Part shown: in pieces, positions 3,805-25,341 of the stretch | Layout of the letters: every line of letters starts with the position of its first letter | Numbering within the stretch: the first letter of the stretch is position 1 | Source: Halomarina oriensis | Lineage (GTDB): Archaea; Halobacteriota; Halobacteria; Halobacteriales; Haloarculaceae | Reading direction: 5' to 3' | DNA length: 64,000 nt | NCBI RefSeq assembly: GCF_009791395.1 | Contig: NZ_WSZK01000015.1 | Span: 186,001-250,000 of the forward strand | The notes under the pieces: model-generated | What the model was told of the DNA's origin: nothing | Databases searched by the model: none | The model's input: the letters and a program-made list of their open reading frames with translations, nothing else | Position numbers and translations under genes: made by a program

Positions 3805-4302
3805 ATGATTACGGTGGTCTCCGACACACACGGCCGAGACGGACACCGACTGACGGGTCGTACGCTCGACGCCGTCCGCGAGGCCGACCACGTCCTCCAC
3901 GCGGGCGACTTCAACACCGAGGCGGTCCTCGACGCCTTCCGGGAGGAGGCAGCGTCGTTCCACGGCGTCCACGGGAACAACGACACACCGGGCGTCCGCG
4001 AACGCCTGCCTCGCCGACGAACGGTCGACTTCGGCGACCTCCGTATCGCCATGGTCCACGGCCACGAACACACCGACACGTCGCTGGCACTCTACGGGAG
4101 ACAGGAGAACGCCGACCTCGTCGTCGTCGGCCACTCACACCGACCCGACTTCCGGTCCGTCGCCGACGTGCCGGTGTTGAACCCCGGCAGCCACGCCGAA
4201 CCGCGCCGCTATCACCGAGCGCACGCCGAACTCGAACACGACCCGCTCCGGGGCCGCCTCGTCCAGCCGGACGGAACGGAGCTCTCCCGGTTCGAGGTGT
4301 AG
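3805..4302 (+). CDS. YfcE/MJ0936-type metallophosphoesterase
   Basis: Small calcineurin-like phosphodiesterase, 165 residues, of the archaeal MJ0936/YfcE group, which hydrolyses phosphodiesters with two metal ions. Metal-binding motifs are in order: DTHGR (residues about 7-11), AGDFN, GNND, HGHE and GHSH, then a C-terminal NPGS motif. The start MITVVSDTHG is the family start; an open frame runs upstream to 3691 but overlaps the divergent CDF gene. It is transcribed divergently from that CDF exporter with a 70-bp gap. A perfect hairpin directly follows the stop codon. The physiological substrate is unknown. Confidence 0.88.
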   Translation: MITVVSDTHGRDGHRLTGRTLDAVREADHVLHAGDFNTEAVLDAFREEAASFHGVHGNNDTPGVRERLPRRRTVDFGDLRIAMVHGHEHTDTSLALYGRQENADLVVVGHSHRPDFRSVADVPVLNPGSHAEPRRYHRAHAELEHDPLRGRLVQPDGTELSRFEV

Positions 4303-4306
4303 CGTG

Positions 4307-4325
4307 ACCGCTCTCCGAGAGCGGT
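4307..4325 (+). terminator. Perfect 8-bp hairpin just after the phosphodiesterase stop
   Basis: ACCGCTCT, a 3-base loop, then AGAGCGGT, starting 4 bases after the stop codon. It lacks a following T-tract, so it could be a 3'-end processing or protective structure and not a terminator. The rest of the 4303-4568 gap holds a G-rich stretch, a TATA-like CTTATA near 4408 and the palindrome at 4426-4441. Confidence 0.4.
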
Positions 4326-4425
4326 GAAAGCATGGGAGGGAGGGCTGAGTCCGGTTCGGGGACCGGGGGAGGACCGAAGCTGCATCCGACACGACGTGCC
4401 CCGACAGCTTATACACGACCGAGGC

Positions 4426-25073: not shown

Positions 25074-25147
25074 GGGCACGTAGCTCAGTCGGACAGAGCG
25101 TCGGACTTCTAATCCGATGGTCATGGGTTCGAATCCCATCGTGCTCG
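25074..25147 (+). tRNA. tRNA-Arg (anticodon UCU)
   Basis: A complete cloverleaf can be drawn: acceptor GGGCACG / CGTGCTC (one G-U pair), D-stem GCTC/GAGC, anticodon stem TCGGA/TCCGA with loop CTTCTAA giving anticodon TCT, a 5-base variable loop, T-stem ATGGG/CCCAT with loop TTCGAAT, and discriminator G. No intron is visible and CCA is not encoded. It reads AGA codons, which are rare in the high-GC genes of this window. Its 3' end is repeated twice downstream. Confidence 0.95.
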
Positions 25148-25244
25148 TGAGCGTGTTGTAAGCGGACGCGAACAACCGCGAACGCACCACGTGGGATTCG
25201 AACGAGGCGAGTCGCGCGCAGCGAAGCGAGCACGTCTCGACGTT

Positions 25245-25265
25245 GTTCGAATCCCATCGTGCTCG
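25245..25265 (+). repeat. Direct repeat of tRNA-Arg 3' end (att-like), copy 2
   Basis: 21 bases identical to 25127-25147, that is the T-loop, T-stem 3' strand, acceptor 3' strand and discriminator of the tRNA (GTTCGAATCCCATCGTGCTC plus G). Duplicates of tRNA 3' ends are what tyrosine integrases leave when an element inserts into a tRNA gene. Confidence 0.7.
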
Positions 25266-25324
25266 CTCACTGCGTTCGCTCCCACGATGTAGTCCCCCTC
25301 ACTCGCTTCGCTCACTCGCGGGAC

Positions 25325-25341
25325 TCCCATCGTGCTCGTGA
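25325..25341 (+). repeat. Direct repeat of tRNA-Arg 3' end (att-like), copy 3
   Basis: 17 bases (TCCCATCGTGCTCGTGA) identical to 25134-25150, so the match runs 3 bases past the tRNA end. No integrase gene lies between the copies. The 25148-25366 gap is otherwise made of GAGCGAAGCGAG-type repeats and holds no gene. Confidence 0.6.

Follow-up and report, generated by a model that had tools for sequence, protein, structure and literature searches.

Tail-copy repeats behind tRNA-Arg(UCU) of Halomarina oriensis as probable borders of gene-less insertion units at haloarchaeal tRNA genes

What placed two partial copies of the end of a tRNA gene directly behind that gene? The question is raised by the tRNA-Arg(UCU) gene of the haloarchaeon Halomarina oriensis, located in a 64,000-nt stretch of contig NZ_WSZK01000015.1 (positions 186,001 to 250,000 of the forward strand; hereafter the window, with positions counted from its first letter). 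The last 21 bases of the tRNA (GTTCGAATCCCATCGTGCTCG) have an exact second copy at 25245-25265, and a 17-base sequence across the tRNA end (TCCCATCGTGCTCGTGA, 25134-25150) has a second copy at 25325-25341, both in direct orientation. An initial annotation of this DNA had reported both copies, which were reproduced here, with about 100 and 60 bp between them; the gaps between successive tail copies measure 97 and 59 nt. With up to 3 mismatches allowed, the 21-mer occurs in only two places in the window, where 100 dinucleotide shuffles yield an expectation of 0 and exclude chance, and the whole 4.07-Mb genome holds a single additional site, at 3 mismatches. Behind the tRNA stand unit 1, a 97-nt body with a 21-nt tail, and unit 2, a 59-nt body with a shorter tail (Table 1). 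In a search of the window region against Rfam, the tRNA alone reached the gathering score. Here, it is argued that the repeats probably delimit two insertion units without genes, members of a haloarchaea-wide family of cassettes (roughly 80-130 nt) at tRNA 3' ends.

The same arrangement, overlooked in the initial annotation, stands behind many other tRNA genes. Eight Halomarina species (G000 to G007) were available, including H. oriensis itself (G000), H. halobia (G001), and H. rubra (G005). When the tail of each tRNA was compared with its own surroundings for all 44 matches to the Rfam tRNA family (RF00005) in G000, 14-16 of 41-44 tRNA genes were found to have their own 3' end (~21 nt) repeated in direct orientation downstream, in most cases 75-175 nt from the tRNA, and never upstream. 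At a score of at least 13, own-tail copies were present downstream of 15/44 tRNAs and upstream of 0/44, against 26/1886 for the tails of other tRNAs; at a score of at least 18, these values were 8/44, 0, and 0/1886, respectively. The congeners G005 and G006 carried copies at 22/42 and 24/43 tRNAs (score at least 13; G000, treated identically, gave 14/41), and which tRNAs bear them varies among the three genomes. Smaller samples from four further genera, three of which belong to other families, yielded own-tail copies at 4/8, 4/8, 1/10, and 3/9 tRNAs. Overall, tail-copy units stand behind a third to half of the tRNA genes examined. As a separate observation, tail copies were never seen at the tRNA-Ala(UGC), -Ser(GCU), and -Leu(CAG) loci (e.g., L027, L055, L063) of three Halomarina genomes; such tRNA genes are possibly those closely trailed by a gene or rRNA.

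The anatomy of the units was described from 78 examples excised from three genomes (G000, G005, and G006). Their bodies are gene-less and 52-222 nt long (median 99.5 nt; 10-90% range 80-130 nt), and half of the units (39/78) have a perfect 21/21 tail. The block of identity extends from G53/T54 of the tRNA to the discriminator, CCA being absent. In many bodies an initial hairpin is followed by the inverted T-arm and then by a GAGCGAAGCGAG-rich loop, with GAGCGACCGnGG immediately before the tail copy, and many units open with a T-run, after the tRNA and after the tail. Of the 78 bodies, 59 contain an inverted T-loop core, where 5.5 are expected from shuffled bodies. Moreover, the inverted arm is matched to the local T-stem: in a set of 167 usable hairpins drawn from many genomes, the paired fractions at three successive T-stem positions are 0.89/0.71/0.52, compared with 0.71/0.40/0.26 for shuffled loci, in which the T-stems of other loci served as the control. 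At tRNA-Arg(UCU), the inverted T-arm piece TGGGATTCGAAC (25192-25203), also overlooked in the initial annotation, lies between the tRNA and copy 1, making the interval between them a hairpin; positions 25188-25262 can be folded as one long hairpin. A second type of unit has an inverted acceptor-stem arm. Unit 2 of tRNA-Arg(UCU) is of this type, and in G002 a homologue of it immediately follows the same tRNA gene. Parts of the bodies are common to different tRNA genes, as the loops of hairpin 2 (H2) have their closest relative at a different tRNA in 48/56 cases, and the Gly-UCC unit of G005 aligns with the Ser-GGA unit of G000 at 83% across 81 nt.

Evidence that such units arrive by insertion was obtained by comparing the sequence past the distal tail with the sequence that adjoins the tRNA in a relative without the unit. 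Matches between filled and empty sites were seen repeatedly and reached scores of up to 46, whereas the maximum among 734 non-orthologous control pairs was 29 and the next highest 21. At tRNA-Leu(CAA), five of the eight Halomarina species are empty, with a conserved downstream sequence right behind the tRNA, while G006 and H. halobia hold two different units at the same point, followed by the same conserved sequence; G004 has a more complex arrangement. Fewer events are needed for two independent gains than for many losses, and this locus is therefore polarised as gain by parsimony. Likewise, tRNA-Pro(UGG) is empty in G000, and G005 and G006 carry different units there. Among arrays of unequal length, the extra unit adjoins the tRNA at 18 rank-shifted junctions (12 tRNA loci), against 2 junctions where it does not, indicating that arrays grow at the tRNA-proximal end, although the Leu-GAG case may be a tandem duplication. 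Recurrent, precise insertion of gene-less units at tRNA 3' ends is thus well supported by sequence comparison. The suggestion in the initial annotation of integration at a tRNA 3' end, or of a tandem array, is borne out to the extent that insertion products and tandem arrays with shared tails are present; the att (attachment site) nature that it assigned to them is not.

The family extends well beyond Halomarina. A strict motif of one loop type (type A) was present in 65/391 genomes of Halobacteria and its reversed pattern in 0, and a scan of 84,980 species returned 101 type-A stretches, of which the 80 with titles listed were all from haloarchaea (including Haloferax, Halobellus, Halorubrum, and Haloarchaeobius) or unclassified euryarchaeal metagenome-assembled genomes. 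Behind a tRNA on the same strand, at a distance of at most 700 nt (median 59), lie 95/105 of the type-A copies, and 90 of these have at least 16/21 of its tail. A scan of 2.9 million viral contigs (IMG/VR) for the type-A motif gave no match; it did not extend to unit 1 of tRNA-Arg(UCU), which is of another loop type. One motif copy, located 8.7 kb from a tRNA-Lys and considered as part of a larger autonomous parent, proved to follow an intron-bearing tRNA-Trp.

Table 1. Features of the tRNA-Arg(UCU) locus in the window.
Feature	Position	Strand	Basis or remark
tRNA-Arg(UCU), probable insertion target	25074..25147	+	ARAGORN; RF00005 74.9 bits
tRNA 3' tail, G53/T54 of T-loop to discriminator; proximal copy of 21-bp direct repeat	25127..25147	+	
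Unit 1 body, 97 nt, no gene	25148..25244	+	Aligns with G006 across entire body, 82%
Inverted T-arm copy CACG-TGGGATTCGAAC of unit 1; left arm of hairpin 2	25188..25203	-	Inverted repeats I1/I2; folds with tail copy
Hairpin 2 loop part of unit 1 (GAGGCGAGTCGCGCGCAGCGAAGCGAGCACGTCTCGACGTT)	25204..25244	+	Resembles relatives' units at tRNA-Gly, -Tyr, -Ser, -Val
Distal tail copy 1, identity 21/21	25245..25265	+	
Unit 2 body, 59 nt	25266..25324	+	
Inverted acceptor-stem arm CACGATG inside unit 2 body	25283-25289		
Distal tail copy 2, exact last 14 nt of tRNA	25325..25338	+	17 nt to 25341 counting TGA after it

Starting from the own-tail copies, the precise gains, the proximal order of the arrays, the conserved inverted arm, and the body parts common to different tRNA genes, a mechanism may be proposed. 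A putative recombinase or transposase, encoded outside the unit and acting in trans, would recognise the hairpin ends, presumably in single-stranded form, together with the T-arm target, with strand exchange at two points, the T-loop and the 3' end of the tRNA. Exchange at both points would bring in the body, leave the 21-nt tail on both sides, and keep the tRNA intact; with new units entering between the tRNA and older units, arrays of the form tRNA-[body-tail]n would result. The tail would then be a duplicated target rather than a part carried by the unit, an interpretation favoured here because bodies are common to different tRNAs. It is conceivable, although put forward tentatively, that the units represent a new class of mobile DNA, i.e., structure-defined cassettes of ~100 bp without genes, carried from one tRNA gene to another by a host recombinase that has escaped recognition. 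For such cassettes the T-arm would serve as the landing site, the tail would be duplicated on arrival, and arrays would grow beside the tRNA.

Several observations weigh against this proposal. First, fold energies exceed those of shuffles only modestly (mean z -1.2, compared with -0.3 upstream and -0.8 behind tRNAs that lack copies). Second, the bodies are of low complexity (GAGCGAAGCGAG) and the similarity between loci is therefore partly compositional. Third, 21-bp repeats allow deletion, such that empty sites may be secondary and lone cases of presence or absence are unpolarised. Fourth, some cases, such as the Leu-GAG repeat in G005, resemble a plain tandem duplication. Finally, neither an enzyme (tyrosine recombinases and Cas1 were checked; no transposase family was searched) nor an autonomous parent element was found for the units.

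The chief rival explanation dispenses with a dedicated enzyme. In this scheme, the GC-rich hairpins of tRNA genes would provoke replication slippage or template switching, by which the tail and hairpin DNA close to it are copied, and bodies would be shuffled between tRNA loci through recombination at short repeats. The low complexity of the bodies and the Leu-GAG repeat agree with such an origin, as does the fit of the inverted arm to the local T-arm, which correction of a palindrome would predict, and the Arg-TCG array of G006, in which units 1 and 3 are near-identical. Repeat-mediated deletions have, in addition, been described in Haloquadratum (PMC3119063). However, the bodies at Leu-CAA and Pro-UGG show no visible likeness to their flanks, the same base receives different units, the 21-nt block is fixed and the unit length defined, and additions nearly all adjoin the tRNA. 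An origin by slippage or template switching is therefore considered unlikely, if less so than the explanations that follow.

The units could also be conserved functional RNA domains that act as a terminator, a trailer, or a regulator in tRNA maturation and are passed on vertically with the tRNA gene in front of them. Covariation in the hairpin stem and the T-run that starts many units after the tRNA and the tail would suit such a role, and the counterpart of the units in Escherichia coli is annotated as a small RNA, rttR. This explanation is improbable, given the fast turnover of units among congeners and the lack of a unit at about half of the tRNA genes, some of them orthologues that function unit-free. 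The E. coli counterpart, the 178-bp repeats of tyrT/tyrV (RtT RNA, RF00391), is the closest known arrangement. There, too, tandem units stand behind a tRNA, each ending in an exact tRNA tail (the last 19 nt of tRNA-Tyr including CCA), with an inverted piece of the tail inside (10 nt, GGGGAAGGAT). In contrast to the E. coli repeats, which are longer, differ in sequence, and are known here from one locus, the haloarchaeal units occur at many tRNA genes and turn over between species. The RtT family gave four matches at the E. coli locus and none in five Halomarina loci tested; one of the four lies between tyrT and tyrV (L196 1564-1695), in addition to the three behind tyrV. To our knowledge, the origin of the tyrT repeats has not been explained.

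According to the initial annotation, the repeats at tRNA-Arg(UCU) are old scars of lost integrase elements. Direct copies of a tRNA 3' end are indeed the usual signature of att sites, and tyrosine recombinase (PF00589) matches number 6-14 in seven of the eight Halomarina genomes (one match in the incomplete G007). The annotation was also correct that an integrase is absent, as no Pfam tyrosine recombinase was found in the window, nor within about 150 kb of tRNA-Arg(UCU), or along the available contig, in the eight species. Two genuine integrase elements show what such insertions look like in these genomes. In a 14.0-kb element in tRNA-Arg(GCG) of G006 (C1:410000-449400; L343/L344), which has displaced an older tail unit beyond attR, the att block measures about 44 nt, and a 3.4-kb element at tRNA-Leu(UAG) of G000 (C4:5500-25400; L341) has a block of about 52 nt, both lengths being measured by eye; in each, the integrase gene lies ~0.7 kb from the tRNA. 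These blocks extend into the anticodon arm, whereas the block of the units comprises 21 nt from the T-loop. In G000, an integrase gene also occurs ~1.7 kb downstream of tRNA-Arg(GCG) and its unit (C1; L345 around 1846-2943), with no distal att copy within 20 kb.

Comparison with relatives and mobile elements, which the annotation had proposed as checks, did not favour it either. At tRNA-Arg(UCU), most of seven relatives hold full or decayed copies, none with a tyrosine recombinase nearby, close to the pattern of repeats without any element that the annotation had named as speaking against its own interpretation. As for a matching attP in viruses or plasmids, the blastn matches listed for the 361-nt locus covered only its tRNA part. 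As for the proposed relics of cargo, the HalOD1 gene and a 78-aa open reading frame are located downstream, outside the repeats, and their position at this tRNA is conserved in G005, which has no element there. Given att blocks of a different kind, spacing that reflects a unit of defined and uniform length (median 99.5 nt) and not a random remnant, recent and precise gains, the lack of an integrase near this tRNA, and the absence of the type-A motif from viral contigs, classical attL/attR scars of lost tyrosine-integrase elements are very improbable.

Insertion units remain the preferred explanation, and they share traits with several other known systems. Like tyrosine-integrase elements (haloarchaeal integrated genetic elements and proviruses), they insert at the tRNA 3' end, preserve the tRNA, and leave a direct repeat; unlike them, they are gene-less, have a 21-nt T-loop block, and are uniform in length. 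Growth at one end beside a fixed site, with a repeat after each unit, is also typical of integron cassette and CRISPR arrays, and, as in integrons, a folded single-stranded site is possible. These arrays differ from the units in that the latter have no gene cassettes and no known integrase, and Cas1 is absent in 18/23 unit-bearing genomes, including G000, G005, and G006 (present in 5/23), indicating that casposon-like or CRISPR-adaptation enzymes are not needed. Casposons insert at tRNA 3' ends with a target-site duplication, their casposase being a Cas1; the units differ from them both in the lack of Cas1 in most carriers and in being gene-less. The likeness of the units' bulged hairpins to miniature inverted-repeat transposable elements or IS200-IS605 derivatives is a resemblance only. 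In Haloferax gibbonsii LR2-5, 11 partial tRNAs were annotated, several beside a complete gene (PMC7921747). They are probably the same phenomenon; they are reported there as remnants, and no description of a unit, insertion events, or a family was found. No description of the haloarchaeal unit family or of its insertion events was found in the literature, as represented by open-access papers.

If this interpretation is correct, an old att scar at one locus gives way to a widespread process that inserts DNA at tRNA genes throughout an archaeal class, and the haloarchaeal units may supply a family context for the tyrT repeats of E. coli. Short tRNA-tail repeats alone should then not be taken as evidence of proviruses or islands in haloarchaea. 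Should the enzyme be found, hosts that are genetically tractable, Haloferax among them, would offer a system for site-specific insertion in which dozens of landing sites occur naturally.

Three minor observations concern the tRNA genes themselves and their surroundings. A tRNA-Arg(CCG) called by ARAGORN at 4281-4375 of the window has no counterpart in the genome's 44 RF00005 matches and is probably a false call. In G002 and G007 (L012, L011), an intron interrupts the tRNA-Arg(UCU) gene after about position 38-39; the other six Halomarina species have none there. The kinase gene upstream of tRNA-Arg(UCU) is conserved in all eight.
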